Below, piece after piece: positions 29,535 through 63,293 of a DNA stretch of 64,000 nucleotides. The notes under the pieces were generated by a model. It made no database searches. It was not told the DNA's origin and saw only the letters and a list, made by a program, of their open reading frames with translations. The DNA comes from Burkholderia sp. WP9 (GTDB lineage Bacteria; Pseudomonadota; Gammaproteobacteria; Burkholderiales; Burkholderiaceae), in assembly GCF_900104795.1 (NCBI RefSeq), contig NZ_FNTG01000001.1, forward strand, positions 2,046,001 to 2,110,000, read 5' to 3'. A program made the translations under genes and the position numbers. Position 1 is the first letter of the stretch. Every line of letters starts with the position of its first letter.

Positions 29535-29546
29535 GGACCTTGGTCT
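29535..29546 (-). promoter_or_regulatory. DosR-like box 1, upstream of the decarboxylase operon
   Basis: GGACCTTGGTCT on the plus strand, i.e. AGACCAAGGTCC in the direction of the decarboxylase. It lies about 170 bases before that start codon. The core is GGAC-N4-GTCY. Confidence 0.72.
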
Positions 29547-29742
29547 TACGGGTATGCCGACACTATCGGATAACTATGCATCGAGTGGAATCGCCATTGC
29601 ATGACGAGGTCAAACATCATTCCTGCTGTTCGAAGCGGTCATGGATTTCATTCCGCACAACCGCAATTTCCCGTGTCCAATTCGAAAAGACATGGCGTCT
29701 GGATATTGCGCCGCTCAAGTCGTCAGAAGGCGCGCGCATATA

Positions 29743-29754
29743 GGACCTTAGGCC
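29743..29754. promoter_or_regulatory. DosR-like box 2, upstream of the DUF3300 gene
   Basis: GGACCTTAGGCC, flanked by ATA and GAT. One right-arm base differs from the dyad. It is about 110 bases before the DUF3300 start, but its orientation matches the copies that point to minus-strand genes, so it might also serve the decarboxylase. Confidence 0.6.
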
Positions 29755-29863
29755 GATAGTAATCCGCCGCTTGCGATGGTGTACTGACAAAGCGGGCATC
29801 TCTCGGGACTCTCGCCTGAAAACCAGAATCTGTGCCACCCGTCATATTGGAAAAGGAGCGGCC

Positions 29864-31354
29864 ATGACCCAGTGGAGTGCGCGACTCTTTTATGGGATGT
29901 GCATGGGGTTCCTCGTTGTGCTGACACTTGGTTCCAGCAGTGCGCCTGCCCAGACTCCCAATCCCTCGAGCGATGCCGCCGGACAAGCCCAAGCGCAGCA
30001 GCCGACATTCAAGCCGGAGGAGATCGAGGCGCTAGTCGCACCGATCGCACTCTATCCGGACTCCGTCCTGTCACAGGTATTGATGGCCTCGACCTATCCG
30101 CTGGAGATCGTGCATGCCGCGCGTTGGGTCAAGGCCAATCCGAAGCTCAAGGGTGATGAGGCCGTGAAGGCCGTGCAGGATCAGCCGTGGGACGTCAGTG
30201 TGAAATCGCTCGTTGCGTTTCCGCAAGTGCTCGAACCGATGAACGACAAGCTCGACTGGACACAGAAGCTCGGCGATGCGTTTCTTGCGCAGGAAAAGGA
30301 CGTTCTCGATGCCGTGCAGCGGCTACGTGCGCGAGCGCAGAAATCGGGCAACCTCAAGTCCAATGAGCAACAGAAAGTGATGACGGAACCGGCCCCGGCT
30401 GGCGGGCAAACCACGCAGACCATCGTGCGTATCGAACCGGCAAATCCTGAGGTGATCTACGTGCCGGCCTACAACCCGACAGTCGTGTACGGCACCTGGG
30501 CGGCTCCGGCTTATCCTCCGTATTACTGGCCACCTGCTCCGGCTTACTATCCCGGCGCCGCGCTTGCCACCGGCTTCGCCTGGGGCGTGGGCCTCGCGGC
30601 CGCCGGCGCAATCTTCGGCAACTGCAACTGGGGCGGCGGAGACGTCAATATCAATGTCAACAAGGCCGCCAATATCGATCGCAACTTCGACCGCAGCAAG
30701 GCTCAGAGCGGCAAGTGGCAGCATGATGCGGGCCATCGCCAGGGCGTCGCCTATCGCGACAACGCGTCCCGTGAGAAGTACTCGAAGAACGTCTCGGGCG
30801 CCGACGCACGCGGCGACTTTCGTGGCCGTACCGGTGGCGCGACTGACCGCGCCGCGGGCTCCGACAGAGCTGGCGCCGGCAACCGTGCAGGCGGCGCGAA
30901 CAACGCCGGCGGCGGTAACCGCGGCGGTGGGACAAATAACGCCGGCGCGGGTAATCGCGGCAGCGGAGCGAACAATGCCGGTGCGGGCAACCGTGGCGGA
31001 GGAGCGAATAATGCGGGTGCGGTTAACCGCGGCGGTGGGGCAAATAATGGCGGCGTGGGTGAGCGTGGCGGTGGGGCAAATAATGCCGGCGTCAGCAACC
31101 GCGCCGGCGGGGCGAATGTTGGCGGCTCGACCAATCGTGCGGACGTTTCCGACCGGGCCAGTGCGGGAGGCGGTCGGGCCGCCACCGGCGGCGGAGGCGG
31201 CGGTCGAGACAACGCCTTCCAGGGTGTAGGCGGTGGCGGCGCCTCGCAGCAAGACTTCAACCGGGGGCGCGCAAGTGCGCAGTCTTCGAGCTTTAGTCGA
31301 CAGGGCGGCGGAGCGCGGGCTGGTGGTGGCGGTGGCGGACGTGGCAGGCGCTAA
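29864..31354 (+). CDS. DUF3300 domain-containing exported protein with Gly/Asn-rich repeat tail
   Basis: A 496-residue exported protein. The ATG at 29864 has AAGGAG upstream and starts a signal peptide ending near SSAPAQT. Residues about 45-260 are the DUF3300 domain (IEALVAPIALYPDSVLSQVLMA, VIYVPAYNPTVVYG). A short hydrophobic GWG-rich stretch follows, then a low-complexity tail with about eight 12-residue repeats of the NRGGGANNAGAG type. The function is not established. The next gene, DUF2950, starts 12 bases later; the two families often travel together. Confidence 0.9.
   Translation: MTQWSARLFYGMCMGFLVVLTLGSSSAPAQTPNPSSDAAGQAQAQQPTFKPEEIEALVAPIALYPDSVLSQVLMASTYPLEIVHAARWVKANPKLKGDEAVKAVQDQPWDVSVKSLVAFPQVLEPMNDKLDWTQKLGDAFLAQEKDVLDAVQRLRARAQKSGNLKSNEQQKVMTEPAPAGGQTTQTIVRIEPANPEVIYVPAYNPTVVYGTWAAPAYPPYYWPPAPAYYPGAALATGFAWGVGLAAAGAIFGNCNWGGGDVNINVNKAANIDRNFDRSKAQSGKWQHDAGHRQGVAYRDNASREKYSKNVSGADARGDFRGRTGGATDRAAGSDRAGAGNRAGGANNAGGGNRGGGTNNAGAGNRGSGANNAGAGNRGGGANNAGAVNRGGGANNGGVGERGGGANNAGVSNRAGGANVGGSTNRADVSDRASAGGGRAATGGGGGGRDNAFQGVGGGGASQQDFNRGRASAQSSSFSRQGGGARAGGGGGGRGRR
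30872..31140 (+). repeat. 36-bp tandem repeats encoding 12-residue Gly/Asn units
   Basis: About eight imperfect units within the DUF3300 gene encode variations on GAGNRGGGANNA. Synonymous differences between units (GCG/GGG, AAC/AAT) show they are not recent identical duplications. Copy number may vary between strains. Confidence 0.75.
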
Positions 31355-31366
31355 GGAGACAAAAGC

Positions 31367-32284
31367 ATGAAGTCACCACTACGATTCCTCGCGGCCCGGC
31401 TTGGCGCAATCGGCAGCGCAGTTATCGTTGCGCTGACACTTTGCCTCGCGGCACCTCAGGCGGCATACGCGCAGAAGGACTTCAAATCCGCTGAAGATGC
31501 GATGACTGCATTTGGCGATGCGATTGCCAACGACGACGAAGCCGCCTTGAAGTCGTTGCTTGGCAATGACTTTCGGGAGCTCATTCCTCCTGTGGGCGCC
31601 GAGTTGCGAACCCGCTTCCTGACAGCCTGGAAAACGTCACATGCGATTCAGGCATCGGGCAGCGAACGTGCAGACATCAAGGTAGGCAATGACGGCTGGA
31701 CCCTGCCCATTCCTCTCGTGAAATCGCCGCAGGGCTGGCATTTCGACACGCACGCCGGCGTGGAGGAAATGCGCTTGCGCCGCATTGGACGAAACGAGCT
31801 TGCCGTCATTCAGACCATGCTGGCGATCTACGATGCGCAACGCGAATACGCCAGCACGGACCATGACGGCAGTGGCGTGCTTGTTTACGCCAGGAAACTA
31901 TCGAGTTCGCCCGGCAAGCGCGACGGCCTGTACTGGCCTACTGGCCCCGACGAAAAACCGAGCCCTCTTGGCGAAGCCTTTATCACGGCCGGCACGCGCA
32001 ACCCATCGCAAGCGGGCTACTACGGCTATCACTACAAGCTGCTGACCTCGCAAGGCCCTCACGCCCCGGGCGGAGCGTATGACTATGTCGTGAACGGTAA
32101 GCTTTTCGGCGGTTTTGCCGTGATTGCCTGGCCGGTTCGTTACGGAGAAACCGGTATCAAGAGCTTCATGGTCAGTCACGACGGGCAAGTCTACGAACGA
32201 GACCTTGGACCTGATAGCGCGGCCAAGGCCGCCGCGACCAAGTCGTTCGATCCCGCTCCCGGATGGACCAAGGAGCAACCTTGA
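31367..32284 (+). CDS. DUF2950 domain-containing exported protein
   Basis: A 305-residue protein with a signal peptide ending at AAYAQ. The mature domain fits DUF2950: KSAEDAMTAFGDAIANDD near the start, DGLYWPTGPDEKPSPLGE in the middle and GYYGYHYKLLTSQGPHAPGG. The function is unknown. AAGGAGAC precedes the start. It follows the DUF3300 gene by 12 bases and its stop overlaps the next start (TTGA), so all three are one operon. Confidence 0.9.
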   Translation: MKSPLRFLAARLGAIGSAVIVALTLCLAAPQAAYAQKDFKSAEDAMTAFGDAIANDDEAALKSLLGNDFRELIPPVGAELRTRFLTAWKTSHAIQASGSERADIKVGNDGWTLPIPLVKSPQGWHFDTHAGVEEMRLRRIGRNELAVIQTMLAIYDAQREYASTDHDGSGVLVYARKLSSSPGKRDGLYWPTGPDEKPSPLGEAFITAGTRNPSQAGYYGYHYKLLTSQGPHAPGGAYDYVVNGKLFGGFAVIAWPVRYGETGIKSFMVSHDGQVYERDLGPDSAAKAAATKSFDPAPGWTKEQP

Positions 32285-34363: not shown

Positions 34364-36154
<1,791 letters not shown>

Positions 36155-36842: not shown

Positions 36843-38594
36843 TCATAGCGCTCCTGCCACTTGCGGCGGCGCACTTCGCCCTGTCTTCCATTCGTCGATC
36901 GTGTCGGCAACCGAGATGCCACGTTGGAGGTAGCCCACCAGGTTCTCAACACCCGCCGCGCGCAGAATATCCCGCACCTCCGCATGAGCGGAGACCAGCC
37001 GCAACGTTATTCCGCCCGTCTTCAGCGCTTCATGCAGCTTGGCCAACATGCGCGCACCCGCGAGGTCAACAGCGGGAGAAGTCGACAGATCGCAGATAAC
37101 CAGTTTGAGCGATCCGTCGCCAGTCCGGATCTTGTCCCATACGGCAGCGCGCACATGCTCGACATTGAAGTAGAGCAGCGACGCCTCGACGCGGAATACC
37201 AGTACGCCTGGCGCCGCTTCGTTGTCCGGGTGGCGTTCGGCGTCGGAGTAGATCCGGGTGCCGGGAATCTTGCCCAGAAATGCCACGTGTGGATGTGCGG
37301 CGCGTCTTATAAGCAATAACATTGAAACCAGCACTGCCACGATCACGCCTTTCAGGATGCCTAGCAGAAGCACGGCGGCGAACGCTACCATCGAGACGAA
37401 AAATTCAAACCGGCTTACCCGCCAAACGTGACGCATCTCGTCGATATCGACCAGCCCTTTCACCGCAACCAGTACGATCGCGGCCAGAACCACACTTGGC
37501 AGGTTTTTCAGCATTCCGGTCAGAAACAACAGACACAGCCCGATAGTCACGGAAGCGAAGACCAACGCGAGCGGTGTCTTGGCGCCGGCCTTGTCGTTGA
37601 CCGATGACTGCGACAAACCACCCGCGACCGGATAGGCCTGAAACAGTCCCGCTGCCAGATTGGCCGCGCCGAGTCCGAGTAGCTCCTGGTGTGGATTGAT
37701 CTCGTAACCGTTCGCCTGGGCCAGCGCCCGCGCGGCAGAAACACTTTCGACGTACGACAGCAGCATGCACGCGAACGCTAACGAAATCGCACCGTCCACA
37801 TCGCGGACGCGCAGGCCAGGCCAGCGAAACTCGGGTAGACCTTGCGGCAACGCGCCGACAGTCTTGAAGCCAAGGCCGATCAGCGGTGTCACAGATAACA
37901 CAATGATCGAGATCACCACCACGAACAATGCGACGGGCCGACCGGGCAGGAACTTCTCCCCCAGTAGCAGCACGACGATCGCCGCAACACCAAATCCGAG
38001 CACGGCGAGATTGGTACTGGGAAGTTGACCGGCGAGCGTGACGACGCGATCGAAAAATTGCTCGCCACCGCCCTTCACCCCAAACAACTTTGGTAGCTGA
38101 GTCAAAGCAATAGTCAAGGCGGCGCCCGCCTTGAACCCGAGCAGGATCGTCTCGCTAATGAAATTGACCAGCGAACTCAGCCGCAGAATCCACCCCACGA
38201 AGCACATTGCGGCGACCAGCAGCGCAGTCAGGGCGGCAATGGCGGCGAATCGTGCCGGATCCCCTCCAGCCATCTCCGAGACTGTCACACCGACCAGCAT
38301 CGAAATCGCCGAAGTCGGGCCAATCGCGAGCTGGCGGGAAGACCCGAACAACGCATAGGCGAGTCCCCCAACCAGATAACAATAGATGCCGTACTCTGGT
38401 GGCAATCCAGCGAGCGTGGCATAGGCGAGCGACACGGGAATCGCGTAGGCCGCCAGGGTGGCACCTGCAATGGCATCGTGCGTGAGCCACTTCGGCTGAT
38501 AAGACGATAGCCACGTTAGGGGAGGAAACATGGCCCGCCATCCCGAAGGCACAGCTCGCGTTACATCGCTAACAGGACGAGGATCCTCGGTCAT
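36843..38594 (-). CDS. SulP family inorganic anion transporter with STAS domain (copy 2)
   Basis: A 583-residue carrier starting at MTEDPRPVSD (38594), behind GGAGACGACC; the frame stays open to 38723, but that would run through the regulatory box at 38725. Marks are GATLAAYAIPVSLAYATLAGLPPEYGIYC, the ASNG-like LAQANGYEINPHQELLGLGAANLAAGLFQAYP and a C-terminal STAS domain with VICDLSTSPAVDLAGARML. It is divergent from the SYLF lipoprotein and has a perfect-arm DosR-like box 131 bases upstream. Confidence 0.92.
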   Translation of the reverse strand: MTEDPRPVSDVTRAVPSGWRAMFPPLTWLSSYQPKWLTHDAIAGATLAAYAIPVSLAYATLAGLPPEYGIYCYLVGGLAYALFGSSRQLAIGPTSAISMLVGVTVSEMAGGDPARFAAIAALTALLVAAMCFVGWILRLSSLVNFISETILLGFKAGAALTIALTQLPKLFGVKGGGEQFFDRVVTLAGQLPSTNLAVLGFGVAAIVVLLLGEKFLPGRPVALFVVVISIIVLSVTPLIGLGFKTVGALPQGLPEFRWPGLRVRDVDGAISLAFACMLLSYVESVSAARALAQANGYEINPHQELLGLGAANLAAGLFQAYPVAGGLSQSSVNDKAGAKTPLALVFASVTIGLCLLFLTGMLKNLPSVVLAAIVLVAVKGLVDIDEMRHVWRVSRFEFFVSMVAFAAVLLLGILKGVIVAVLVSMLLLIRRAAHPHVAFLGKIPGTRIYSDAERHPDNEAAPGVLVFRVEASLLYFNVEHVRAAVWDKIRTGDGSLKLVICDLSTSPAVDLAGARMLAKLHEALKTGGITLRLVSAHAEVRDILRAAGVENLVGYLQRGISVADTIDEWKTGRSAPPQVAGAL

Positions 38595-38724: not shown

Positions 38725-38736
38725 GGACCTTGGTCC
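38725..38736 (-). promoter_or_regulatory. DosR-like box 3, SulP copy 2
   Basis: GGACCTTGGTCC, the copy with perfect 5-bp arms (GGACC-TT-GGTCC). It lies about 131 bases before the SulP start at 38594. Confidence 0.78.
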
Positions 38737-38922: not shown

Positions 38923-38934
38923 AGACCAAAGTCT
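38923..38934 (+). promoter_or_regulatory. DosR-like box 4, SYLF lipoprotein
   Basis: AGACCAAAGTCT, followed by GAT. It lies about 114 bases before the SYLF start and reads in the coding direction of that gene. Confidence 0.72.
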
Positions 38935-39047: not shown

Positions 39048-39635
39048 ATGAACCGAAGGAACTTTGTATTGAATACCGCAGCAGCCACTGCCGCCGCGGG
39101 CCTCGCGTTCGCGGGCTGCACCACCACAGGAGGCAGCGGCAAGAGTCCCGAAACGGACGCGTCGAAGCGTCAGGCGCTCGACGCGAGCGTCGACGGAACG
39201 ATGTCGCGGCTTTACGCAACAGTGGGGGGAGCACGCGAACTCGCATCCAAGGCGCAAGGCATCCTCACTTTCCCGGCAGTCAAGAAAGTGGCCTTTATCG
39301 CGGGTGCCGAGTATGGTGAAGGCGCATTGCGCGTAGGCGGCGCGACGGTCGGCTATTACAGCACGACGGCTGCTTCTTTCGGCTTCCAGGCCGGCGCCGA
39401 ATCAACCGCGGTCATCTTCCTCTTTATGACGAAGGACTCGCTCGCCAAATTCACCAGCTCGGCCGGTTGGTCGGTCGGCGGCGACGTGGCGGTCTCCTTG
39501 CTAAAGGTGGGTGCGAACGGGTCCATCGACACGACATCCGCATCCGCCCAGGTTGTCGCCATAGTCCTGACCAATACCGGCCTGATGGCGGATGCGTCGC
39601 TCGCTGGAACCAAAGTGACCAAGCTCAACCTCTGA
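39048..39635 (+). CDS. SYLF (Ysc84-type) lipid-binding lipoprotein
   Basis: A 195-residue lipoprotein with strong GGAGGACG ribosome site. The signal peptide ends in the lipobox AFAGC with Cys24. The mature domain is the SYLF/Ysc84 fold: AQGILTFPAVKKVAFIAGAEYGEG, GYYSTTAASFGFQAGAEST and GGDVAVSLLKVG. SYLF domains bind phospholipid, and Burkholderia homologues are abundant surface lipoproteins. It is monocistronic behind DosR-like box 4. Confidence 0.92.
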   Translation: MNRRNFVLNTAAATAAAGLAFAGCTTTGGSGKSPETDASKRQALDASVDGTMSRLYATVGGARELASKAQGILTFPAVKKVAFIAGAEYGEGALRVGGATVGYYSTTAASFGFQAGAESTAVIFLFMTKDSLAKFTSSAGWSVGGDVAVSLLKVGANGSIDTTSASAQVVAIVLTNTGLMADASLAGTKVTKLNL

Positions 39636-40276: not shown

Positions 40277-41089
40277 CTATGGCTGAATCATCGTGCCAAC
40301 TGCCGCCGCAATATCACGACTCACCACAGCAAGCGCCCGGTCATAGGCCGTGGTCATCGCCTCAAAACCTGCGCCGGACACTGGCTCGCGAACAATAGAT
40401 CGGCCTGAACGAACAGGCTGCTTCCCCGGAGCACGGATGGTCCATTGCACGTCCACAATGACGTCCTGGCCGGGTTCCGCGTCGAAACGCATGACATCCA
40501 GCCTCACGTACCATGTGGCCAGCGGATCGGTCGTACCCGCGAACACCGTCACCTGCTGCGAATTCAGCAGCGTACCCAGATCCGCCGCAACGACCCGCGC
40601 GATATTGCCTTTCAGAGGCTGCGCCCATCGCGCGAATTCGTTGATGGCGACTTCGTTGCCGGCCGCCCGGGTCACGATTTGCGGACGGTCCACCAGATCC
40701 GGCACGGTAACCGGCCCTACCGCCAGAGGGATCGCGTGAGGCGTCGCCAATGTCGCGAGAGTCGCATCCGGGCTCAGCGTGTAGAACCTGGCGGGTGACG
40801 ACTTGCATCCCCCCAGCCCCGCGGCGACCAGTCCAACCACGAGGCATGACACGATATAGCGGATCGAATGCGCGGCGCAGCGGTGCAAAACAGCGCTGAA
40901 TGACGCGGCAAACGGCGCCACGCCTGCGCCAGGCGCATTCCCACGCCTTCCTTGAATCTGTCGACGAACTCCCCCGCCGTTTGGTCCCGCGATGAATACG
41001 ACAGCAAGACGGCATCCGCTCATTGGCGTGCCGTTTCCGTGCCGAGCCACGTGCCTTGCGCTCCCGTCACGACGCCGATATCGAGTCAT
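40277..41089 (-). CDS. pqiC: PqiC-like ABC-type transport auxiliary lipoprotein
   Basis: 270 residues from the ATG at 41089, which overlaps the pqiB stop (ATGA) and has GGAGGG 6 bases upstream. The conserved PqiC/ABC_trans_aux domain runs from about residue 98 (FYTLSP) to the end, with VGPVTVPDLVDRPQIV and INEFARWAQPL. The lipobox LGGC is at residue 95, far too deep for a normal signal peptide. Starting at the GTG at 40921 would put it at residue 39. Either translation truly starts downstream or the 5' part carries a frameshift. PqiC anchors the Pqi lipid-transport bridge in the outer membrane. Confidence 0.82.
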   Translation of the reverse strand: MTRYRRRDGSARHVARHGNGTPMSGCRLAVVFIAGPNGGGVRRQIQGRRGNAPGAGVAPFAASFSAVLHRCAAHSIRYIVSCLVVGLVAAGLGGCKSSPARFYTLSPDATLATLATPHAIPLAVGPVTVPDLVDRPQIVTRAAGNEVAINEFARWAQPLKGNIARVVAADLGTLLNSQQVTVFAGTTDPLATWYVRLDVMRFDAEPGQDVIVDVQWTIRAPGKQPVRSGRSIVREPVSGAGFEAMTTAYDRALAVVSRDIAAAVGTMIQP

Positions 41090-42705
41090 GGCTGCCCTCC
41101 GGGCTTTCCGCGAACCAATGCTTCGGGATGCTGCGAAAGATAGTCCGCAAGCGTACGGAGTGCCGCGGAGGTACGGGTCAACTCTCTAAGAGTCTCTTCT
41201 GTCGTCTGCTGCAAGGACGAATCGGGTTGCAGCGCGGTATTCGCCGAATTAAGCACTGTTTGCGCGGAAGCCAATGTGTCGTGAGCGCGTGGAATGACAT
41301 CCGCGTCGAGTTTCGAGAGCATCGAGTTCGTGGTTTGCAGCGTCGTACGGGCGTCGTTTCCGATTGCCTCGAACGGAATGCTATTGAGCTTCGTCAGCAA
41401 GCGCGTAACCGAATCCTGCAGCGATTGCAGCGTGCGCGGCACAGCCGGCAACTCAGGTGGTGACCTGTTCCAGTCGATCTTGGCCTTCGGGGCGTCAGGA
41501 AAATAATCCAGCGCAAGATAGAGTTGACCGGTCAGAGGATTGCCACTCTTTAGCTGGAAGCGAAAGCCATTTTCGACCAGGTAATTGGCGATTCCTTTTG
41601 GATCCTCGCTGATGCGGCCGCCGGCTCGCCCGGTCTGATAGCGCGAGGTAAAGCGCTCGGGATAGATCTGGATCTCAACCGGAATACTGAAGCGGCGGCG
41701 TTCCGGGTCGAATCGCGTATAGATCTGTGTCACTTCGCCGATCACTACGCCGCGAAAATCCACGGGTGCGCCAACCGTCAGACCGCGCACGGAATCCGTG
41801 AAGTTCACTACATACCTATCGACAATACGGTCGTGCTGCTTCATCGCATCGGCGCGAGTCGAATACAGTTCGAATTGCGCATTGGCCACCGCCGCGACCT
41901 CCTCGACCGAATCCGCGGGCGACTCGAATGCCACACCGCCGATGATGATCGAAACGATCGACTGGGTCTCGATCCGCAGACCGTTCGTATCGAATGCCAT
42001 ATCGACTCCACTGGCGTGCCAGAAGCGCGTATCGCTTTTCACGAACCGATCATAAGGGGCATTCACGAATACCTTGAGCGTGACGCCTTTACCATCCGGG
42101 TCCAACTGATAGGAGGCAATCTGTCCAACCTGAAGCCTTCGGAAATAGACCGGCGAGCCGACATCCAGCGAGCCGAGTCCCGTGCTCTTCAACGTGAATT
42201 CGCGCCCGGGAATGTCACTGGCAAATACAGGGGGCACCTCCAGCCCAACAAAGTCATGACGGGCTTTCACGGCATTGCCGACATCCACGTCGATGTAAGA
42301 CCCGGACAAAAGTGTGCCGAGTCCGGACACCGTGCCGCCGGAGATGCGCGGACGCACCACCCAGAAGCGCGTATTGTCGACAAGCATATTCGCCACATCG
42401 CGCACCACTTCGGCTTTCGCGACGACGTGTTTGTGATCCGTTGAGAGCGTCACCGCTTCGACGACCCCGATATCGACGTCTTTGAACTTGAGCTTGGTCT
42501 TACCCGCTTCCAGCCCCTCACCCGTCTTGAAGCTGATGGTTATCTTTTCTCCACGTTCCAGCACGGCCTTCGTGGCGAGCCATCCGCCCACCAGCAGCGC
42601 CACGATAGGCACCAGCCACACTAGCTGCATGCGCCAGCGCGAGCGCGGGACCACGTCGGCCTCAACCAGATCAGGTGTATCGGGTTTTTCGCTAGGCGTG
42701 GTCAT
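41086..42705 (-). CDS. pqiB: PqiB, multi-MCE-domain membrane-bridging protein
   Basis: A 539-residue protein with an N-terminal membrane anchor (MQLVWLVPIVALLVGGWLA at about 26-44) and three MCE/MlaD domains (starting near residues 55, 160 and 300; for example GEGLEAGKTKLKFKDVDIGVV and VRGLTVGAPVDFRGVVIGEV). A C-terminal helical region follows. PqiB hexamers form a needle across the periplasm for phospholipid transport. It overlaps pqiA by 14 bases and pqiC by 4. The whole set follows an RND efflux operon. Confidence 0.92.
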   Translation of the reverse strand: MTTPSEKPDTPDLVEADVVPRSRWRMQLVWLVPIVALLVGGWLATKAVLERGEKITISFKTGEGLEAGKTKLKFKDVDIGVVEAVTLSTDHKHVVAKAEVVRDVANMLVDNTRFWVVRPRISGGTVSGLGTLLSGSYIDVDVGNAVKARHDFVGLEVPPVFASDIPGREFTLKSTGLGSLDVGSPVYFRRLQVGQIASYQLDPDGKGVTLKVFVNAPYDRFVKSDTRFWHASGVDMAFDTNGLRIETQSIVSIIIGGVAFESPADSVEEVAAVANAQFELYSTRADAMKQHDRIVDRYVVNFTDSVRGLTVGAPVDFRGVVIGEVTQIYTRFDPERRRFSIPVEIQIYPERFTSRYQTGRAGGRISEDPKGIANYLVENGFRFQLKSGNPLTGQLYLALDYFPDAPKAKIDWNRSPPELPAVPRTLQSLQDSVTRLLTKLNSIPFEAIGNDARTTLQTTNSMLSKLDADVIPRAHDTLASAQTVLNSANTALQPDSSLQQTTEETLRELTRTSAALRTLADYLSQHPEALVRGKPGGQP

Positions 42706-45498: not shown

Positions 45499-45499
45499 G

Positions 45500-48742: not shown

Positions 48743-48746
48743 CCAT

Positions 48747-50165: not shown

Positions 50166-50179
50166 GGCACTGTCCCTGA

Positions 50180-50572
50180 TCAGGAGGGTGTGCAGTTGCC
50201 AAACAACACGATTGCATCGCTACTATTGGCGAGCATCAATGTCATTGATCCGTCAGTCGAGTCGAGGATCAGGGTCCATGCGTATCCCATCTCGGTGCCC
50301 TCCATGACTACCTGCTCGGGTTCTTTATTGACTACGAGCATAGGCGTGGTGTGAACGGGTCCAATCACCTCTTTCTTTTTAAAGTCCAGAGTTAGAAATC
50401 GGGGAGCGCCAATGTCATCGGGCAAGGAACGCTTGCACTCCAGGCCGGGATCGCACGCATGAGCTTCGACGGTCGCGCAAACCAGCTTCTTGCTGCCATT
50501 GAAATCGTCGGCGTAAACATTGAGCGCACAAAACGCGAACGAGATCGCGACGACCGTAGACTCGAGTTTCAT
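50180..50572 (-). CDS. Small exported protein of unknown function, first gene of the RND-Pqi operon
   Basis: 130 residues with AAGGAG ribosome site and a signal peptide ending at VYADD. The mature part has four cysteines (VCATVEAHACDPGLECKR and the C-terminal GNCTPS), suggesting disulfides in the periplasm. No family is recognised. It is 14 bases before the RND adaptor gene, so it is probably co-transcribed, and DosR-like box 5 lies 133 bases upstream. Confidence 0.8.
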   Translation of the reverse strand: MKLESTVVAISFAFCALNVYADDFNGSKKLVCATVEAHACDPGLECKRSLPDDIGAPRFLTLDFKKKEVIGPVHTTPMLVVNKEPEQVVMEGTEMGYAWTLILDSTDGSMTLMLANSSDAIVLFGNCTPS

Positions 50573-50704: not shown

Positions 50705-50716
50705 GGACCTTAGTCT
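50705..50716 (-). promoter_or_regulatory. DosR-like box 5, secreted protein-RND-Pqi operon
   Basis: GGACCTTAGTCT on the plus strand, AGACTAAGGTCC towards the gene at 50572. It sits in the 160-base gap after the receiver-only regulator. Confidence 0.72.
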
Positions 50717-50732
50717 CATATACAGCGACGAA

Positions 50733-51131
50733 TCAGCAATCTCCGCTATTGCTCGGGTTGATGCCTAACGCCTGCTCGACGGCTTTGATCAAGGCTGACC
50801 CGTTGAACGGTTTGCGCAGATATGCAGTCGCGCCAGACGCCATGGCTCGTTCCCGCACAGTGATATCGTCATGAGCGGTGATGATGATGACTGGGAGATC
50901 GCGCGGAGCAAGTTGCCGCTGGACCTCTAGCCCATTGATGCCTGGCATCTGGAGGTCCAGAATGACGCAGTCCGGAGAAAACGAAGGAACAGCCGATAGC
51001 GCGTTGAGAAAAGCTTCCCCACTGACAAACGTTTCCGCCCCGATTCCCGCGGAGAGCAACAAACGTTTGATGGAGCGACAGACCGACTCGTCGTCATCCA
51101 CCACAGCGACTATTCGACTGGACTTGACCAT
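50733..51131 (-). CDS. Receiver-only response regulator
   Basis: 132 residues from MVKSSRIVAV (51131). It is a complete receiver: acidic cluster VVDDDES (D12-D14), phospho-accepting D59 in VILDLQMPG, the Thr/Ser position in IIITAHDD and Lys in AYLRKPFNG. There is no output domain. It is downstream of the FixJ-like gene with DosR-like box 6 in between, so it may be both a target of and a phosphate sink for the same kinase. Confidence 0.9.
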   Translation of the reverse strand: MVKSSRIVAVVDDDESVCRSIKRLLLSAGIGAETFVSGEAFLNALSAVPSFSPDCVILDLQMPGINGLEVQRQLAPRDLPVIIITAHDDITVRERAMASGATAYLRKPFNGSALIKAVEQALGINPSNSGDC

Positions 51132-51213: not shown

Positions 51214-51225
51214 GGACTTTGGTCC
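51214..51225 (-). promoter_or_regulatory. DosR-like box 6, receiver-only regulator
   Basis: GGACTTTGGTCC, both arms GGAC/GTCC intact, flanked by ATA. It lies about 83 bases before the start at 51131. Confidence 0.78.
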
Positions 51226-51279: not shown

Positions 51280-51915
51280 TCAAGTAGAAGGTGATTGATC
51301 ATCGGCCGCGTGCACACCGGCCTTATCCGCGAGGCGAATGAGTTCGACGATTGATCTCGCCCTCATCTTCTCCATCACACGCCCGCGGTGAATCTTGATT
51401 GTTTTCTCTGCGGCTCCTAAATCACTTGCGACCTGCTTATTCAAACGCCCAGTCAGAACAAGGGCCATGACCTCGCGTTCGCGACGCGTGAGTTGATTGA
51501 CACGCCCCAATAGCTCCGCATGTTCCCGCTCTACTTCAAACTCTTTGCAGGCAGATTGCAGAGCTCGATCGACAGCGGCAATCAGCACCGATTCCCGAAC
51601 CGGTTTAATCAGAAAGTCTAGTGCGCCTGCCTTCATCGCGTCGACACTCGATTCGACATCGCCACGTCCGGTAAGAAATACGATGGGAACGCGTCCATTC
51701 AACCGATGTTGTACGTCGAGCCCCGTCATTCCTGGCATCTGCAGATCGAGTAGAAGGCACGCAGGAGAACTCGAAAGATCCACTCGATCGAAAAATACCT
51801 CGGCACTGTCGAAGGAATGCACACAATAGCCGGCGGCGCGAAGCAGGCGCGAGATCGCGCAACGCACCTGCTCATCGTCGTCGACAAGGAATACTCGACT
51901 GTTAGGCTGACTCAT
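51280..51915 (-). CDS. FixJ-like response regulator (NarL/LuxR-type HTH)
   Basis: 211 residues from MSQPNSRVFL (51915), with GGAG 9 bases upstream; ATG 51921 is an alternative. The receiver has D12-D14, phospho-acceptor D57 in LLLDLQMPG and Lys in FLIKPVRE. The LuxR HTH is LTRREREVMALVLTGRLNKQ followed by the recognition helix AEKTIKIHRGRVMEKM. The two lysines of AEKTIK match those of mycobacterial DosR that contact its GGAC dyad. The gene overlaps the end of the sensor kinase, so it is its cognate regulator. Confidence 0.93.
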   Translation of the reverse strand: MSQPNSRVFLVDDDEQVRCAISRLLRAAGYCVHSFDSAEVFFDRVDLSSSPACLLLDLQMPGMTGLDVQHRLNGRVPIVFLTGRGDVESSVDAMKAGALDFLIKPVRESVLIAAVDRALQSACKEFEVEREHAELLGRVNQLTRREREVMALVLTGRLNKQVASDLGAAEKTIKIHRGRVMEKMRARSIVELIRLADKAGVHAADDQSPST

Positions 51916-53356
51916 GGTCATTTGCTCCAGCAATTCCGCCGTATGTCTGACGCGGCGGGAATGTAATATGGAAGCACGCACCCGGGCCGTCGTTCTTCTC
52001 AGCCCACATGCAGCCACCGTGAGCGTTGACTATCGTGCGGCTGATGGATAAGCCCAAACCCAATCCCTGCGGCTTTGTGGTGTAAAAAGGCAGGAACACC
52101 TTGTCGATGTGATCCGCCGGCAATCCGTTACCGTGGTCTTTCACAGTAATGTGCGCACCGCCGTCAACAGCCCGGTGCACCGCCAATTCGACGAGACGTT
52201 CCGCCGGCGCGCGTCCCTGCACGGCATCGAAACCATTCAGTAGCAGGTTAAGTAGGACTTGCTGCAATTGAACCCGGTCGCCGCGTACCATGGTCAATGC
52301 ATCTTCGACATAAAAGGTCACATGTACGCCGCGAACCATTGCGTCGCTACGCACCAGCGCGGCCACATCCGCGACCACCGTCCCCAGGTCCAACGGCTTC
52401 ATCTCGATGTTGCCATTCCTCACCAGCGTGCGGATTCTCTGGATGACTTCGCTGGCTCGACAGTCATCAGCAACAATATCTTGTAGCGCTTCCCGAAGTT
52501 CTGCGTTTTTGCTTGCGCCCAGGTTCACCAACCTTTGCGCAGCCTCCGCGTTACTGAGGATCGCTGTCAACGGTTGATTCAACTCGTGGGCAAGGGACCC
52601 GGCAAGTTCACCTAGCGACGAAACCCGGGCTAGATGCGCAAGTTCGTTCCGGCTCAGTTCGAGCTCGCTGCAATCACTGCGGTCGGATATAGCGACTATC
52701 TGCGCCTCTTGACTATGCGACTTGACCCGAACGATCCTGATTTCCGCTGGGAAATCCCCGCCCCTGCGGCGACTTGCTACCAGTTGACGTACCAGAACTC
52801 TTTCCGGGCGTTCGCCAGATGTGGACAGATGGTCAACGGCACGGTGCCCTTCGCAATCAACAGCAGGTGGAAAAAGCACCTCAATTGATGCGCCCATCAT
52901 CTCGTCCTGGCTACGCCCAAACAATTCAACGGCGCCGCCATTGGCGAACGTGATGAGATTTTCCGCGTCCACTGTCAGGATGGGAACAGGCACCAACTCG
53001 AGCGCATCTCGCAAAGACATATTTTCATCAAGCATCTGAAGCGCCGGGCGACGCGGCACACGAAACCACGAAAATGGCGAGATGATTTGCTGTGGCGAGC
53101 TTGCCTTCGTGTCCGTCGATCCGGATGCGTATAGGCTCTCTCCTGCTGGGTGCGCAACATGCGCTAAAGCAGACGTCAGGCTGTCTTGCGGCAACAGAAC
53201 GCAGGCCCGATCAGCCGAAAATTGCATCTCCATCGAACAGCCAGTTTCAACGCCAGTGCGACTAGCAGCAGGAAGCCTGCGAGGGGAGTATAGAGCCGTC
53301 AAATTTCCAGCAAGGCGAAGGGCAAACGCCTTCACCTGCCCAATTCGATTCGTCAT
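51902..53356 (-). CDS. FixL-like PAS sensor histidine kinase, likely haem-based oxygen sensor
   Basis: 484 residues from MTNRIGQVKA (53356), behind GGAG with 7-base spacing; the frame is open to 53449. A PAS domain spans about 108-230. H171 in CEGH and R190 in VLVRQ align with the proximal haem histidine (H200) and O2-contacting arginine (R220) of Bradyrhizobium FixL, with one residue gap between them. Dimerisation/phosphorylation follows with H257 in SLAHELNQPL, then an HATPase with NLLLNGFDAV and GLGLGLSISRTIV. It has no membrane span. It phosphorylates the FixJ-like product downstream. Confidence 0.93.
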   Translation of the reverse strand: MTNRIGQVKAFALRLAGNLTALYSPRRLPAASRTGVETGCSMEMQFSADRACVLLPQDSLTSALAHVAHPAGESLYASGSTDTKASSPQQIISPFSWFRVPRRPALQMLDENMSLRDALELVPVPILTVDAENLITFANGGAVELFGRSQDEMMGASIEVLFPPAVDCEGHRAVDHLSTSGERPERVLVRQLVASRRRGGDFPAEIRIVRVKSHSQEAQIVAISDRSDCSELELSRNELAHLARVSSLGELAGSLAHELNQPLTAILSNAEAAQRLVNLGASKNAELREALQDIVADDCRASEVIQRIRTLVRNGNIEMKPLDLGTVVADVAALVRSDAMVRGVHVTFYVEDALTMVRGDRVQLQQVLLNLLLNGFDAVQGRAPAERLVELAVHRAVDGGAHITVKDHGNGLPADHIDKVFLPFYTTKPQGLGLGLSISRTIVNAHGGCMWAEKNDGPGACFHITFPPRQTYGGIAGANDHESA

Positions 53357-53764
53357 CGATGTCTCCGCGCCATGTATAGCTCGTTTTTCGAGTCGTTGCG
53401 ACTGGTCCGCTCGCCTGACATATCTTCCGAATCGCGCGGGCCAATCCATATTGCAACTTAGAACTGCCGACCCTGTGAACTCACTCTAGCGCATTTCCTC
53501 CCTTATTTTTTGACTTATATCATCGGTTTTCGGTCAACCTTACTGTTGTTTTATTTTTTTACCTAACTAAGTCTACCTCGCAGCCATCGTTATTTAATTA
53601 AGAAAAACTAACATAAATATAATTTAGCGAATTGAAGCTAGAATTTTTGAATAGGGATTTACACCACTTTCCCATTTTATTTGGAAAAAAGTGCGGCTAC
53701 GAGTTTAGCTTCTTGCCGCCACATGGCGCTTAAGAGCGAGATCAAAAGCGCACCTGCCTAATTA
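53357..53764. other. AT-rich intergenic region between the sensor kinase and ppk2
   Basis: 408 bases, of which 53500-53700 are strikingly A+T rich (long A and T tracts) against a GC-rich background. It carries the kinase promoter region and the FNR-like site at 53510. No gene is seen. Confidence 0.65.
53510..53523. promoter_or_regulatory. FNR/ANR-like site upstream of the sensor kinase
   Basis: TTGACTTATATCAT matches TTGA-N6-TCAA with one mismatch in the last base. It is about 155 bases before the kinase start at 53356. Confidence 0.4.
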
Positions 53765-54586
53765 TTAGAAAACCTCGGGCACGTATCGAAACGGGTATGC
53801 AGGATCGACATAGCCCTTTGGTTTCTGGCGCGCCGGCAGCGCAATCCGCTTGCGCGGCAATTCTTTGTATGGAACCGAATTCAGGAGATGGCTAATGATA
53901 TTCAGACGGGCGCGCTTCTTGTGATCAGAAGGCACCACGAACCAGGGTGAGCCTTCGGTGTCCGTTGCTGCAAACATCTCGTCGCGCGCCCGAGAGTAGT
54001 CATACCAGCGGCTGTATGACTCGAGATCCATTGAAGAGAGCTTCCATATTTTTCGTTCGTCATTGATGCGCGATTCCAGCCTGCGAGTCTGCTCTTTTTC
54101 ACTCACTTCCAGCCAATACTTCAAAAGAATAATGCCTGAACCCACGATCGCTTTTTCCACCAGCGGAATTGCTTTCAGGAACGCTTGCGCCTGTTCCTCC
54201 GTGCAAAACTTCATCACGCGCTCTACTCCCGCACGGTTATACCAACTCCGATCAAAGAGTACGATTTCACCCGCCGCGGGCAAATAGGGAAGATATCGCT
54301 GCACGTACATCTGGGTCTTCTCGCGATCAGTGGGTGCCGGCAACGCAACGACACGGAAGATCCGTGGGCTGACGCGTTCCGTAATGGCTTTGATCGCGCC
54401 CCCTTTGCCCGCACCGTCTCTCCCTTCAAATACGACGCAAATCTTCGCCCCGGTCGCGACAGCCCACTCCTGAAGCTTCACCAGTTCAACGTGCAATCGA
54501 GCGAGCTCTTTCATGTAAGTCTTGTTGTCGATCTGTCCCAACCTGGCAGCATCCGCGCTTTCCCTTCTCTCAAGCGTTTTAGACAT
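53765..54586 (-). CDS. ppk2: Polyphosphate kinase 2
   Basis: 273 residues with GGGGGAG ribosome site. PPK2 marks are the Walker A loop FEGRDGAGKGGAIK (about 53-66), the Walker-B-like FDRSWYNRAGVERVM, and the lid region LEVSEKEQTRRLESR. The enzyme moves phosphate between polyphosphate and nucleotides, often making ATP/GTP from polyP during starvation or energy loss. It is monocistronic behind DosR-like box 7. Confidence 0.94.
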   Translation of the reverse strand: MSKTLERRESADAARLGQIDNKTYMKELARLHVELVKLQEWAVATGAKICVVFEGRDGAGKGGAIKAITERVSPRIFRVVALPAPTDREKTQMYVQRYLPYLPAAGEIVLFDRSWYNRAGVERVMKFCTEEQAQAFLKAIPLVEKAIVGSGIILLKYWLEVSEKEQTRRLESRINDERKIWKLSSMDLESYSRWYDYSRARDEMFAATDTEGSPWFVVPSDHKKRARLNIISHLLNSVPYKELPRKRIALPARQKPKGYVDPAYPFRYVPEVF

Positions 54587-54658: not shown

Positions 54659-54670
54659 GGACTTTCGGCC
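54659..54670 (-). promoter_or_regulatory. DosR-like box 7, ppk2
   Basis: GGACTTTCGGCC, flanked by ATA. It lies about 78 bases before the ppk2 start. The variant GGACTTTCGGCC is also a form seen among DosR sites. Confidence 0.68.
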
Positions 54671-56373: not shown

Positions 56374-56385
56374 GGACTTTGGTCT
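56374..56385 (-). promoter_or_regulatory. DosR-like box 8, putative outer-membrane protein
   Basis: GGACTTTGGTCT, preceded by ATATA. It lies between the unknown gene ending at 56513 and the barrel gene starting at 56161. Confidence 0.74.
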
Positions 56386-59429: not shown

Positions 59430-61163
59430 TCAGTGCACGATGCCCCGTGGCGCGTCCGGCGCAGCCTGCTTACCGTCCCGCGCGCACCAGGCGGCAAGCG
59501 CCTGCTCGAGGTTGAGAAACATCCGCTCGCGTCCCAGCGTCTTGCCGAGCGGCGCGTTCTGCACTACGGCAAAAACCTCGGGACTGAGGCCGACGAGCCA
59601 TATGGATACTCCGTTTTCTCGGTAATGCTTCTCTGCTTCAGTCAGCATCTTCAGCGCCGTGTACTCCAGATCGAATACCGACCTCATATCCAGTGCGATC
59701 ACCTGAGGATGCGCGCGCTCGACGAGCGGGGTGATCTTGTGACCAATGTTCGAAGCGTTGACGAAGAAGATGCGTCCCTCGGGCCGCAGAAGCAGGAGTC
59801 CCGGGAAATGTTCATCGTCGGGGTGCTGCTCGGATATCGGGCGGAATACGTTGGTGCCGCGCTTGCGACGCAACTCATACACAGGCGGATCAGACACCTG
59901 ATAGGCGAGCGCCGCGAGCGATACGAGAATGGCGATCAGAATACCGTTCAACGTACCCAGCAAGACGACGCCTGCGAGCGCCACGAGCGCCCAGATGAAC
60001 TCGGTCCGCCTGACTGCCAGAATGGCGCGGAAATCCGCCGGCTTGAGCAAGCCGATCGAATAGACGATCACCACGGCCGCGAGCGTCGCATGCGGCATGA
60101 GGCCGATCAGCGGCGCAAGCAGCAGCATCGTGCCCAGGGTGACGGCAGCCGTGACCAGTTCAGCCAGTTGCGTGCGCGCACCCACGAGGCGATTGACCGC
60201 CGTCTGGGTGGTCCCGCCGCCCGCAGGCATCGAACCCACCAGTGCGCCTGCGGCATTACCGAGGCCTGTCGCCAACAATTCCCGATTTGGCAGCGGCGCG
60301 GGCTCTCCGCTCTGCACAAACGCTCGCCCTGAAGCAATGGTTTCGGTAAAGCTCATCAGTGCAATGCCCGCGGCAGCAGGCCACAGTTGCTCGATCAGCG
60401 AGAAGTCCGGAATCACGAGCGACGGCAGCCCGGTCGGAATGTGGCCGACGACGCCAACCCCGTATTTCTGCAGTCCAAGCAGGCCAACACCGGCGATCCC
60501 GCACGCTACCGCAATGAGCGGCGCCGGTGACTTCGGATAGAGATGCTCGAGTGCGACGAGGATCGCAATCGTCACGACGCCGACAATGACGGTCGCCACC
60601 GATGCGTGAGGAAGCCCTGCGAAGAGCGCATACACGTTGTGAAAGAACGAACCCTTCACGACGTGAAGGCCAATTAGTTTAGGCAATTGATCGAGCACAA
60701 TGACGATTGCGATGCCGCCCTTGAAACCCGTTAGCACCGGCTCGGAAATAAAGTTCGCGACGAACCCGAGCCGGAGCAGCCCCGCGAGAACAAGGACGAT
60801 ACCGACAAGCAGCGTGAGCGTAGCGGTTGCAATGGCCAGTTGCGCCACCCCGCCGCCTGGCGCCACCTGACCGAGCGCGGTAGCGGTCAGAATGGCCAGC
60901 GTTGCGCTCGTACTAACGCTGAGTGGCCTCGACGTGCCCAACAGAGCGTAGATCAGCATGGGCACAAGTGCCGTATAGAGTCCGATCTGCACAGGAAGGC
61001 CCGCAACCGTCGCATACGCCATCGCCTTCGGCAATACAACAGCCGATGCCGTGACACCCGCAATGACGTCCGGTTTGATCCAGGACTTCTGATAGCCGTG
61101 TACCCATTCGAGCACGGGCAGATGGAAACCGGAACCGTGGTGCGGCAAGGACCGATTGCGCAT
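59430..61163 (-). CDS. SulP family anion transporter with STAS domain (copy 3)
   Basis: 577 residues. Marks are AGVTASAVVLPKAMAYATVAGLPVQIGLYTA, GNAAGALVGSMPAGGGTTQTAVNRLVGA and a C-terminal STAS domain with VIALDMRSVFDLEYTALKML. GGGAG precedes the start. The copy differs clearly from the two at 34-38 kb, so it is not a recent duplicate. DosR-like box 9 is 170 bases upstream, but its orientation fits the plus-strand gene at 61659. Confidence 0.92.
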   Translation of the reverse strand: MRNRSLPHHGSGFHLPVLEWVHGYQKSWIKPDVIAGVTASAVVLPKAMAYATVAGLPVQIGLYTALVPMLIYALLGTSRPLSVSTSATLAILTATALGQVAPGGGVAQLAIATATLTLLVGIVLVLAGLLRLGFVANFISEPVLTGFKGGIAIVIVLDQLPKLIGLHVVKGSFFHNVYALFAGLPHASVATVIVGVVTIAILVALEHLYPKSPAPLIAVACGIAGVGLLGLQKYGVGVVGHIPTGLPSLVIPDFSLIEQLWPAAAGIALMSFTETIASGRAFVQSGEPAPLPNRELLATGLGNAAGALVGSMPAGGGTTQTAVNRLVGARTQLAELVTAAVTLGTMLLLAPLIGLMPHATLAAVVIVYSIGLLKPADFRAILAVRRTEFIWALVALAGVVLLGTLNGILIAILVSLAALAYQVSDPPVYELRRKRGTNVFRPISEQHPDDEHFPGLLLLRPEGRIFFVNASNIGHKITPLVERAHPQVIALDMRSVFDLEYTALKMLTEAEKHYRENGVSIWLVGLSPEVFAVVQNAPLGKTLGRERMFLNLEQALAAWCARDGKQAAPDAPRGIVH

Positions 61164-61658
61164 AAAGGTGCTCCCTCAGGGCGCGAAGCATTAACGGCAG
61201 GCACAGACGTCGCCCGCTGTTTCTATAGCGGATAGCCGATAGGGAATTCCCTTCTCCGCTTCTCCACAACGCGGGACCCGAGCGGCCAGCCTCGATCTTC
61301 AAGCCTACCGCTTACGCGGTGCGATTCGCATCGGACCAAGGTCTTAGAAGGTCGGGTATGCGCCGTCTCCAGGCCTCTACAACGCCGCTACGATGTGGCT
61401 ACGCGGCTATGCCGCGATCCGCGCGCAGCAGTCGCCGCACCTGCAGATCCGCTCCGTTGAATACGACCATGGTCTGATTGCGCATGAGGGGCGTGAAAAG
61501 CAATGATGAACGCGATCCGGCCACCTCTGCGCTGGAGCGAAACTGCACGCGTCATCTGACACGCCGGACCAGACATGGTCGCCACCGTCCCATCTCCGAT
61601 ATGGCGCAGAGACGTGAGCACCCGTTTGTATCGGCGAAGGCTCGAGTAAGGAGTTGCC
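61164..61658. other. Divergent intergenic region with DosR-like box 9
   Basis: 495 bases between SulP copy 3 (minus) and the glycine-zipper gene (plus). Apart from the dyad at 61333 I see no gene or hairpin I can support. Confidence 0.5.
61333..61344 (+). promoter_or_regulatory. DosR-like box 9
   Basis: GGACCAAGGTCT, preceded by ATC and followed by TAG. It reads in the coding sense for the plus-strand glycine-zipper gene 315 bases away. SulP copy 3 is nearer (170 bases) on the other side. Confidence 0.7.
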
Positions 61659-62132
61659 GTGAATAACTTAACGAAGTGCTGTATTTGCGCTGCGTTGGCC
61701 GGCGCGGTGTCATTCGAAGGCGTGGTGGAGGCGAAGCCCATCGCGTATCCGTCGAAGGGACAAAGCCAGCAAATGCAGCAGCAGGACGACGCCGCGTGTT
61801 ACTCGTGGGCGAAGAGCAATACGGGTGTGGACCCGGCTGCCGTCGCCAATGCCCCCCCTCCGCCTTCGGGTCCCGCGGTGGGCGGTGGCGAGCGCGTTCA
61901 AGGTGCGGCGCGTGGCGCAGCCGGCGGCGCAGTCGTCGGCGCGATAGCGGGCGATGCGGGCAAAGGCGCGGCGATCGGCGCGACGGCAGGCACGATGGTC
62001 GGAGGCTCGCGAGCACGCCAGAACCGGCGGGCTGCCGGGGCTGCCGCCCAGTCACAGACTCAAGGCGCGATGGATACGTTCAATCGTGCCTGGGGCGCGT
62101 GTATGGAAGGCCGTGGGTACACCATCAAGTGA
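61659..62132 (+). CDS. Glycine-zipper periplasmic protein
   Basis: 157 residues starting at GTG with GTAAGGAG upstream. A signal peptide ends near VVEAKP. Residues about 85-120 form a glycine-zipper hairpin (ARGAAGGAVVGAIAGDAG, IGATAGTMVGG), the pattern of YMGG-type and outer-membrane-associated proteins. A conserved Cys pair (AACYSW, WGACMEGRGY) frames it. The function is unknown; such proteins insert in or stiffen the envelope. Confidence 0.82.
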   Translation: MNNLTKCCICAALAGAVSFEGVVEAKPIAYPSKGQSQQMQQQDDAACYSWAKSNTGVDPAAVANAPPPPSGPAVGGGERVQGAARGAAGGAVVGAIAGDAGKGAAIGATAGTMVGGSRARQNRRAAGAAAQSQTQGAMDTFNRAWGACMEGRGYTIK

Positions 62133-62224
62133 GCAATTCCCACCGGTGAAGCCAAATATGTCCTGATAACGGCATCCCACTACCGCGCCCGCAAAAAAAA
62201 GACCGGGTGTCCAAGGAGAGCATC

Positions 62225-62812
62225 ATGAACAGCAAGAAACTCATCATCGTAGCGACGCTCGCGGCCCTGGCACAGGCGGGATTCGCGCAAACAGAACCCA
62301 AAGTGGGCGTGACAAGTGCGCCCGGCAAGGTCTCCGTCACTGGGACGATCAAAACAACGTCGACGGTGGTCGGCATAGAGCCGGAAACCCGCACGGTCTG
62401 GTTAAAGGATGCGAAAGGCAAAGTCGTGCAACTCGTAGTGGGCGAGGAAGCGCATAATTTCGGCCAACTCAAGCTCGGCGACAGTGTTACAGCGGAATAC
62501 TCTCAGGCATTAACCGTCACGCTGAAGAAAGGCAGTGCGCCACTCTCCGCCAATGAGAGTCAGAACATTACGCGCGCACCACTCGGTGCGAAGCCTGGTG
62601 GAACGGCAAGTCGCGAGGTGACGGTCATGGCGAACGTCACTGGCGTCAATCATCAAACTGGCGCGGTAACCCTGCGAGGACCGCAAGGCAATTCACTGGA
62701 CCTGATCGTGCAGGACCCCGAGCAGCTCAAATTGATCAAGAAAGGCGATCAGGTGCAAGTGGTGTACAACGAGGCCGTTGCCATTTCTGTGGAGCCCGCA
62801 GTGGTCAAGTGA
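62225..62812 (+). CDS. Exported two-repeat protein of unknown function
   Basis: 195 residues from MNSKKLIIVA (62225), behind AAGGAG. The signal peptide ends at AGFAQT. The mature part has two similar beta-rich halves, each with a TVVGIEPETRTVWLKDAKGKVVQL or VTGVNHQTGAVTLRGPQGNSLDL core, so it looks like an internal duplication of an about 75-residue domain. No family is recognised. It is 92 bases after the glycine-zipper gene on the same strand, probably in one transcript. Confidence 0.8.
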   Translation: MNSKKLIIVATLAALAQAGFAQTEPKVGVTSAPGKVSVTGTIKTTSTVVGIEPETRTVWLKDAKGKVVQLVVGEEAHNFGQLKLGDSVTAEYSQALTVTLKKGSAPLSANESQNITRAPLGAKPGGTASREVTVMANVTGVNHQTGAVTLRGPQGNSLDLIVQDPEQLKLIKKGDQVQVVYNEAVAISVEPAVVK

Positions 62813-63290
62813 TTGTCGGGATTCGGCCGCGACCCCGGCACCCCACGGTTGACCACGACCCGCGGCCCTTCCCCTCCCTCCCCGCCCACCACGCGGTGCT
62901 CCCGTACTCGTGGAAGCTGCGCTACTCGAAAGCAAGCATGGTGGATTCTTCCGCGGCCTTGTTGCGGTCCACGTCGCGCGCGCCAGAAGAAAGCGGCATG
63001 GCGATTTTATCGTCCGGTATCTGGCTATCAACGGGCGTCGGACCAAAGTCTTATTGTGTGCGTTGCCTTTCACGCTCACATTGGTCGAAACGCAATCGTA
63101 CCCAGATCAGGCTTGCCTGATTCGATGACGACACGTGAACGATGCGTACCCATTCGCATGGCGCTTTCTCCGCCACCCCCTCTATTGTCCCGCCCAGCAT
63201 GTTGCCGAGTGGCATGTCGGCCGTGCTTGTCGCCGGGTTGATGGTTGGCGTTGCGATAAGGATTCCTCACCCTCGAACATGGGGAGACAC
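62813..63290. other. Intergenic region upstream of arcA with DosR-like box 10
   Basis: 478 bases holding the dyad at 63040. An open frame of 142 codons crosses it but overlaps the dyad and has no ribosome site or known pattern. Confidence 0.5.
63040..63051 (+). promoter_or_regulatory. DosR-like box 10, arginine deiminase
   Basis: GGACCAAAGTCT followed by TAT, in the coding sense of arcA and about 240 bases before its start. Confidence 0.7.
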
Positions 63291-63293
63291 ATG

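Follow-up and report, generated by a model that had tools for sequence, protein, structure and literature searches.

The question raised by this locus is what to make of a short inverted repeat that recurs between positions 29535 and 63051 of a 64,000-nucleotide stretch of DNA of the soil bacterium Burkholderia sp. WP9 (the window; assembly GCF_900104795.1, contig NZ_FNTG01000001.1, hereafter C1, positions 2,046,001 to 2,110,000). An initial annotation had listed ten 12-base copies of a GGAC-N4-GTCC dyad upstream of genes and read them as one DosR-like regulon, possibly related to the low-oxygen-activated (lxa) locus of Burkholderia cenocepacia. The locus is described here as a predicted, conserved two-component regulon that belongs to the FixJ/NarL kind and has an operator resembling those of DosR and EL222 as well as class-II promoter geometry. 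It is likely that the dyad is the operator of a FixJ-type response regulator encoded at 51280..51921 and serves class-II activation of a compact energy regulon. What the computation establishes directly is where the sites lie, how far they stand from a −10-like element, and that they occur together with this type of regulator and its recognition helix.

A related dyad was found at all ten coordinates, but literal GGAC-N4-GTCC at two of them (38725 and 51214); seven copies depart from it by one core base and the copy at 38923 by two. The literal sequence was enriched neither in the window (2 occurrences vs. 1.08 expected, with 29 of 100 shuffles reaching 2) nor in the genome, where its 71 occurrences were fewer than the 139 of the reversed control, and it was rejected as the motif unit. 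The true unit extends over more bases and tolerates more variation; its consensus is ATM-RGACYWWRGTCY, with a similar flank on the opposite side. Exact ATMGGACYWWRGTCY gave 7 matches in the 9.02-Mb genome, all 7 within C1:2075532-2119732, i.e. in the 44 kb that surround the regulator gene. When up to one mismatch was allowed, the genome gave 17 matches forward and 6 reverse, whereas the reversed control reached 10 and 4, respectively. A symmetric 18-bp matrix was trained on the ten noted sites and one more at 73721 (11 sites; leave-one-out scores 15.8 to 25.7 bits) and scored 11 places in the window at ≥15 bits, against 0 in 30 first-order simulated windows. Two cluster sites were new: 61464, and 73721, which lies 9.7 kb beyond the window (locus L029; loci are numbered with the prefix L). 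Together with the ten noted copies they make up the twelve sites in and beside the window. None of the twelve lies inside a predicted gene, as had been described for the copies; with a cruder longest-open-reading-frame (ORF) caller 11 of 12 were intergenic, 73721 falling by that caller only inside the N-terminal extension of an ORF. The reported absence of copies from the first 29 kb was borne out as well, no matrix match of ≥9 bits being present before 29535 or in the 20 kb to the left of the window. Scanning of the window and of related loci gave clustered, promoter-placed matches: in 47 Burkholderiaceae loci, 83.6% of which was coding, 2 of 125 sites of ≥18 bits were genic, and 106 of 123 intergenic sites were located ≤300 bp from a downstream start (median 138). 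The FNR/Anr box TTGAY-N4-RTCAA (0 matches in the window, a loose form at one place, 54783) and the sigma-54 promoter pattern (0 matches in the window) were rejected as alternatives there on the basis of those scans. A full-text search of motif spellings combined with topic searches did not find the motif reported in Burkholderiaceae; among the matches listed for the spellings, only PMC10521638, on EL222, was relevant by title or abstract, and the main text of a start-site profiling study (PMC4603805) contained 0 occurrences of 'palindrom' and 'GGAC'.

The regulator gene (51280..51921, minus strand) encodes a receiver (PF00072) and a GerE helix-turn-helix (HTH; PF00196), both above cut-off and together of FixJ/NarL-type layout, with the recognition helix AAEKTIKIHRGRV. 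Against the NCBIfam model PRK09390 (FixJ) the protein scored 181.9–182.1 bits, under the curated cut-off of 255. Its best solved whole-protein matches were 1yio, listed as 'response regulatory protein', and FixJ, and EL222 was the closest among solved chains for its HTH segment. The genome's top FixJ-model match was C1:547198-547806 (230.8 bits, still under the cut-off), a candidate member of an ordinary FixLJ pair. Overlapping the regulator gene is the gene of a FixL-like histidine kinase with the architecture PAS-HisKA-HATPase (51902..53449, minus strand, as longest ORF; a later start at 53035 is preferred by the gene predictor), whose PAS domain is FixL-like in profile match. A receiver-only protein is encoded behind a box at 50733..51131 (minus strand). 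No site of ≥9 bits was found between the kinase gene and ppk2, and the kinase-regulator pair is therefore not itself boxed, unlike the receiver-only gene.

Co-occurrence was determined in 144 same-genus (Paraburkholderia) genomes, the window's own included, in which the motif gave 409 matches vs. 23 for the reversed control. Two of these genomes share their listed site coordinates with the genomes of the named P. graminis and P. ginsengisoli loci, which identifies the genus as Paraburkholderia. The number of sites followed the similarity of the best regulator (Spearman 0.75, with an optimistic p = 3e-27), and in bins of regulator E-value from best to worst at least two sites were present in 27/27, 7/7, 17/21, 7/17, 0/17 and 1/55 genomes. 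Among the named loci, of which at least 491 were confirmed and the best 80 kept, a site of ≥15 bits accompanied 55 of the 58 regulators with an EKT[IV]K helix and 1 of the 22 without it. That single locus (L055) has a regulator 72% identical, its gene apparently split between frames; the remaining 21, mostly with SEITVK, had no sites. The receiver-only gene behaved in the same manner: a box (≥12 bits, ≤260 bp) preceded it in 29 of the 60 loci having such a gene, 25 of these with a −10-like element at +31, and by helix in 29 of 43 EKT-type loci (L055 included) and in none of the 17 other loci. The reading of the copies as a single regulon, most likely under the cluster's own FixJ-like protein, is supported computationally; descent from DosR is not. 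An additional sample comprised 20 weaker same-genus regulators, with 2.6 kb fetched for each. Three Paraburkholderia regulators of this sample (L134-L136) have EATIKIHR in place of EKTIKIHR; sites near them, among them ATTAGACCATGGTTCTAT, show YANNNT at +31, and helix and box may co-vary here.

For the promoter geometry, 86 unambiguous sites were oriented and reduced to 59 below 75% identity. Of the 59, 40 have a −10-like YANNNT exactly 31 bases from the dyad centre (+31), whereas the other offsets average 0.97 occurrences and reach 6 at most. The proximal flank at oriented sites was mostly GTCCKAT. In distant groups (26 sites of ≥17 bits in ten loci) +31 scored 12 over both directions together, vs. 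a mean of 0.75 and a maximum of 3 at other offsets, with +31 matches in Verrucomicrobia, Syntrophobacteraceae, Methylococcales, Nannocystis and Rokubacteria. Of the twelve sites of the window and its flank, 8 have YANNNT at +31 or +30. Taking the −10 element at about −12, an element at +31 places the dyad centre at about −42.5. Class-II activators usually occupy the −35 place upstream of a fixed −10 element. The predicted starts would give the box the geometry of a class-II activator site, with its proximal half in place of the −35 element.

Several observations weigh against the assignment of the box to this regulator and geometry. The loci are related and not independent trials, which makes the p-values optimistic, and the locus sample favours the EKT helix because AEKTIKIH was one of six probe peptides and the best 80 loci were selected. 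A site of ≥15 bits is missing from three of the EKT[IV]K loci, all of them VEKT, and four further EKT types (L138, L141, L143, L146) had no site within the 2.6 kb fetched, the genome of L141 having 0 exact motif matches. Conversely, regulators with EATIK (L134-L136) and EQTIK (L150) have local sites of 16–21 bits, so the first lysine of the helix is not strictly needed. The exact pattern undercounts, since several genomes scoring zero hold a local matrix site (e.g. L135, L136, L142, L145 and L152). No YANNNT was present at +30 to +32 of the Desulfobacteraceae (L088) and L084 sites, nor at 4 of the 12 sites in and beside the window. The receiver-only gene is unboxed in 14 of 43 EKT-type loci (nine Paraburkholderia loci of L064 type, L053, L084, L086, L091 and L115). 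Finally, the genome carries many further FixJ-model matches (124 in total, many of them receiver domains only), so that another protein could bind the box.

From this last point arises the explanation that the box is bound by another protein with an EL222/DosR-like helix, the FixJ-like pair being a mere neighbour, which we hold to be unlikely, given that the number and presence of sites track the regulator and its helix in the 144 genomes and the 80 loci, and in other phyla too. Improbable likewise is the view of the box as a repressor operator instead of an activator site: the box does overlap the predicted −35 region, and EL222 has been engineered as a repressor (PMC10521638), but the −10-like element keeps a constant place at +31, and a box at the −35 place is the usual class-II geometry.

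That the cluster is a DosR regulon or the lxa locus proper, with haem-based oxygen sensing, is very improbable, although its half-sites and spacing are as in the DosR consensus and its targets resemble an anoxic-survival set. With regard to the operator, the statement that core and spacing equal the mycobacterial DosR/DevR box is right for half-sites and spacing as given by TTSGGGACTWWAGTCCCSAA (PMC2275270), but the core GGACTWWAGTCC is matched exactly by 0 of the 12 sites, and the flanking bases are different. Of the 12 sites, 10 agree with the EL222 consensus RGNCYWWRGNCY (PMC10521638, PMC4428443), the exceptions being 54659 and 61464, and it is the HTH of EL222 that best matches the HTH segment of the window regulator among solved structures. 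EL222 of Erythrobacter litoralis differs in being a one-component, blue-light-sensing LOV-HTH protein (PMC10521638), with neither a receiver domain nor a histidine kinase. With regard to the protein, DosR contacts bases through Lys179, Lys182 and Asn183, according to PMC4082495. Residues 41–219 of the window regulator match 3–193 of the DevR chain, and if the alignment, given by its ends only, is ungapped at its end, K205, K208 and I209 fall on 179, 182 and 183; on that proviso the residues agree at two of the three base-contact positions and the Asn183 contact falls on isoleucine. Kinship by descent from DosR is unsupported, the best solved matches being 1yio and FixJ for the whole protein and EL222 for the HTH.

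The layout of kinase and regulator domains, together with the PAS match to FixL, is shared with FixLJ of rhizobia and Burkholderia dolosa; the recognition helix differs, and the regulator stays under the FixJ cut-off. The best whole-protein PDB match, 1yio, is presumably StyR, and has the helix AEVTVKVHR vs. AEKTIKIHR in the window regulator. StyR binds another box and acts in styrene catabolism. With regard to sensing, DosS and DosT of mycobacteria are haem sensors (PMC4082495). The window kinase has a histidine near the expected haem place, and the candidate haem column is occupied by histidine in 9 of the 44 kinases aligned (10 of 44 within two columns); haem oxygen sensing of the FixL type is thus not supported, and the low count also argues against the DosR/lxa interpretation. 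Kinases near boxes in Rokubacteria and Verrucomicrobia contain MASE1 or GAF domains. Given this variable PAS haem column and these other kinases, the regulator-box pair is conserved and its input is not.

In gene content the cluster is of persistence type, like the DosR gene set, and resembles lxa as a large cluster with metabolism, stress and transport genes. The lxa locus is described as such a cluster, linked to anoxic persistence, in PMC6127331 and PMC9104464, and as containing six universal stress proteins (USPs) and an alpha-crystallin (PMC6127331). None of the genome's 19 USP matches is located in C1:2046001-2130000, in which the cluster differs from the DosR/DevR-DosS/DosT system also. 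Nine USP matches in six open frames occur at C1:962377-1003903, beside another FixJ-type regulator. This USP-rich locus (C1:0.962-1.004 Mb) has no box match with ≤1 mismatch and is a likely lxa-like locus. With USPs only outside the boxed cluster and the USP-rich locus unboxed, the two are different loci, and the suggested relation to lxa is not supported. Chance or a dispersed repeat without regulatory role, towards which the missing enrichment of literal GGAC-N4-GTCC (71 genome-wide vs. 139 for the reversed control) might point, is refuted by the degenerate motif, which is clustered, promoter-placed, conserved and fixed in its −10 spacing.

For the FixJ-type regulator as activator, the following sequence of events is proposed; that binding and activation take place, where transcription starts, which genes form operons, what the physiological signal is and that there is a feedback role are all inferred. 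The partner kinase would phosphorylate the regulator, which would then bind the box as a dimer about 42.5 bases before the predicted start, replacing the −35 element. In this state it would activate a regulon sustaining ATP and ion balance under limited respiration, with the arginine deiminase genes, DUF3141-Pta-AckA, PPK2, ornithine decarboxylase, the SulP carriers and the RND-Pqi envelope row as targets. The box-driven receiver-only protein probably damps the signal, by feedback or as a phosphate sink. The boxed deiminase pathway, DUF3141-Pta-AckA, PPK2 and ornithine decarboxylase suggest that ATP and ion balance are maintained without respiration. Judged from the target genes, our best guess for the signal is oxygen or an energy/respiratory limitation; low-oxygen induction would be in keeping with the gene content.

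The individual sites are arranged as follows. Box GGACCTTGGTCT (29535..29546, minus strand) lies 176 bp upstream of the ornithine decarboxylase gene (27001..29364, minus) and box GGACCTTAGGCC (29743..29754, plus) upstream of the DUF3300 and DUF2950 genes (29864..32284, plus), both without YANNNT at +30 to +32. A SulP transporter (36843..38531, minus) is assigned to GGACCTTGGTCC (38725..38736, minus; −10-like TACGCT at +31, predicted start ~38687), and a BPSL1445-family SYLF lipoprotein (39048..39635, plus) to AGACCAAAGTCT (38923..38934, plus; −10-like CATCAT at +30). The row of small ORF, RND adaptor, RND pump, NodT channel, PqiA, PqiB and PqiC-like protein (40277..50572, minus), a putative operon, would be read from GGACCTTAGTCT (50705..50716, minus; −10-like CAAACT at +31, predicted start ~50667), and the receiver-only gene from GGACTTTGGTCC (51214..51225, minus; −10-like TAGGAT at +31, predicted start ~51176). 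Box GGACTTTCGGCC (54659..54670, minus) is found 78 bp upstream of ppk2, encoding polyphosphate kinase 2 (53765..54586, minus), with GATAGT at +31, which was not counted as YANNNT; box GGACTTTGGTCT (56374..56385, minus) has the −10-like TAGCGT at +31. A SulP transporter with a STAS domain (59430..61163, minus) is assigned to GGACCAAGGTCT (61333..61344, minus; −10-like TAGGCT at +31), and CGACCATGGTCT (61464..61475, plus; without YANNNT at +30 to +32) is upstream of the gene of a glycine-zipper envelope protein (61695..62132, plus). Box GGACCAAAGTCT (63040..63051, plus; −10-like CACATT at +31, predicted start ~63089) is assigned to the arginine deiminase genes, the first of which (63135..64000, plus) continues past the window into L029 and is followed by those of ornithine carbamoyltransferase, an amino acid kinase (carbamate kinase by position) and an AI-2E transporter.

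Beyond the window there is a row DUF3141-Pta-AckA-short-chain dehydrogenase, likewise a putative operon, and the cluster also holds DUF2254 and DUF2252 genes. SulP carriers number three in the cluster (34364-38723 and 59430-61163), two of them directly behind boxes. Outside the cluster, a site of 21.2 bits with TAGGCT at +31 was located at C1:802972 (L012, box at 1504). It precedes a second receiver-only gene, 1.29 Mb from the cluster, which by its promoter sequence is likely a distant regulon member.

In relatives the boxes adjoin partly different genes. In P. graminis, of which strain C4D1M carries a relative of the regulator as well as boxes, they adjoin phosphoketolase, and one such row continues with glycogen phosphorylase, a debranching enzyme and 2-hydroxyacid dehydrogenase; others there adjoin DUF3141, a CitMHS transporter row, an aspartate-alanine-exchanger-type transporter and PPK2, and a further row has RND-Pqi-like gene sizes. 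In such an RND-Pqi-like row of B. catarinensis, PqiA was confirmed. A Rokubacteria contig (L121-L124) holds over twelve boxes scoring ≥17 bits in the 78 kb that were read, one of them at an ATP synthase A gene, and may be a second large boxed regulon. Other genes close to its boxes are those of MscS, a PPDK-type enzyme and a receiver-only protein. In the distant phyla the gene caller was prone to shadow ORFs in high-GC DNA, so that 6 of 10 Pfam look-ups were empty.

In a wider frame, and with about even chances of being right, FixJ-type regulators with the EKT helix would be an ancient and widespread equivalent of DosR, found across Proteobacteria, Verrucomicrobia, Rokubacteria and Myxococcota, in which RGACYWWRGTCY at −42.5 and the regulator stayed constant, a box-driven receiver-only brake is present in many, sensors and targets changed, and survival is governed when respiration fails. 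For Paraburkholderia, a likely regulator, an operator and predicted starts are assigned to a large energy-stress gene set, and a vague hypoxia cluster becomes a testable two-component regulon. DNA recognition of the EL222/DosR type is linked to a FixJ-type regulator, and one matrix finds candidate regulons of like kind in several bacterial phyla. The suggested relation of helix to box could help to annotate other response regulators.

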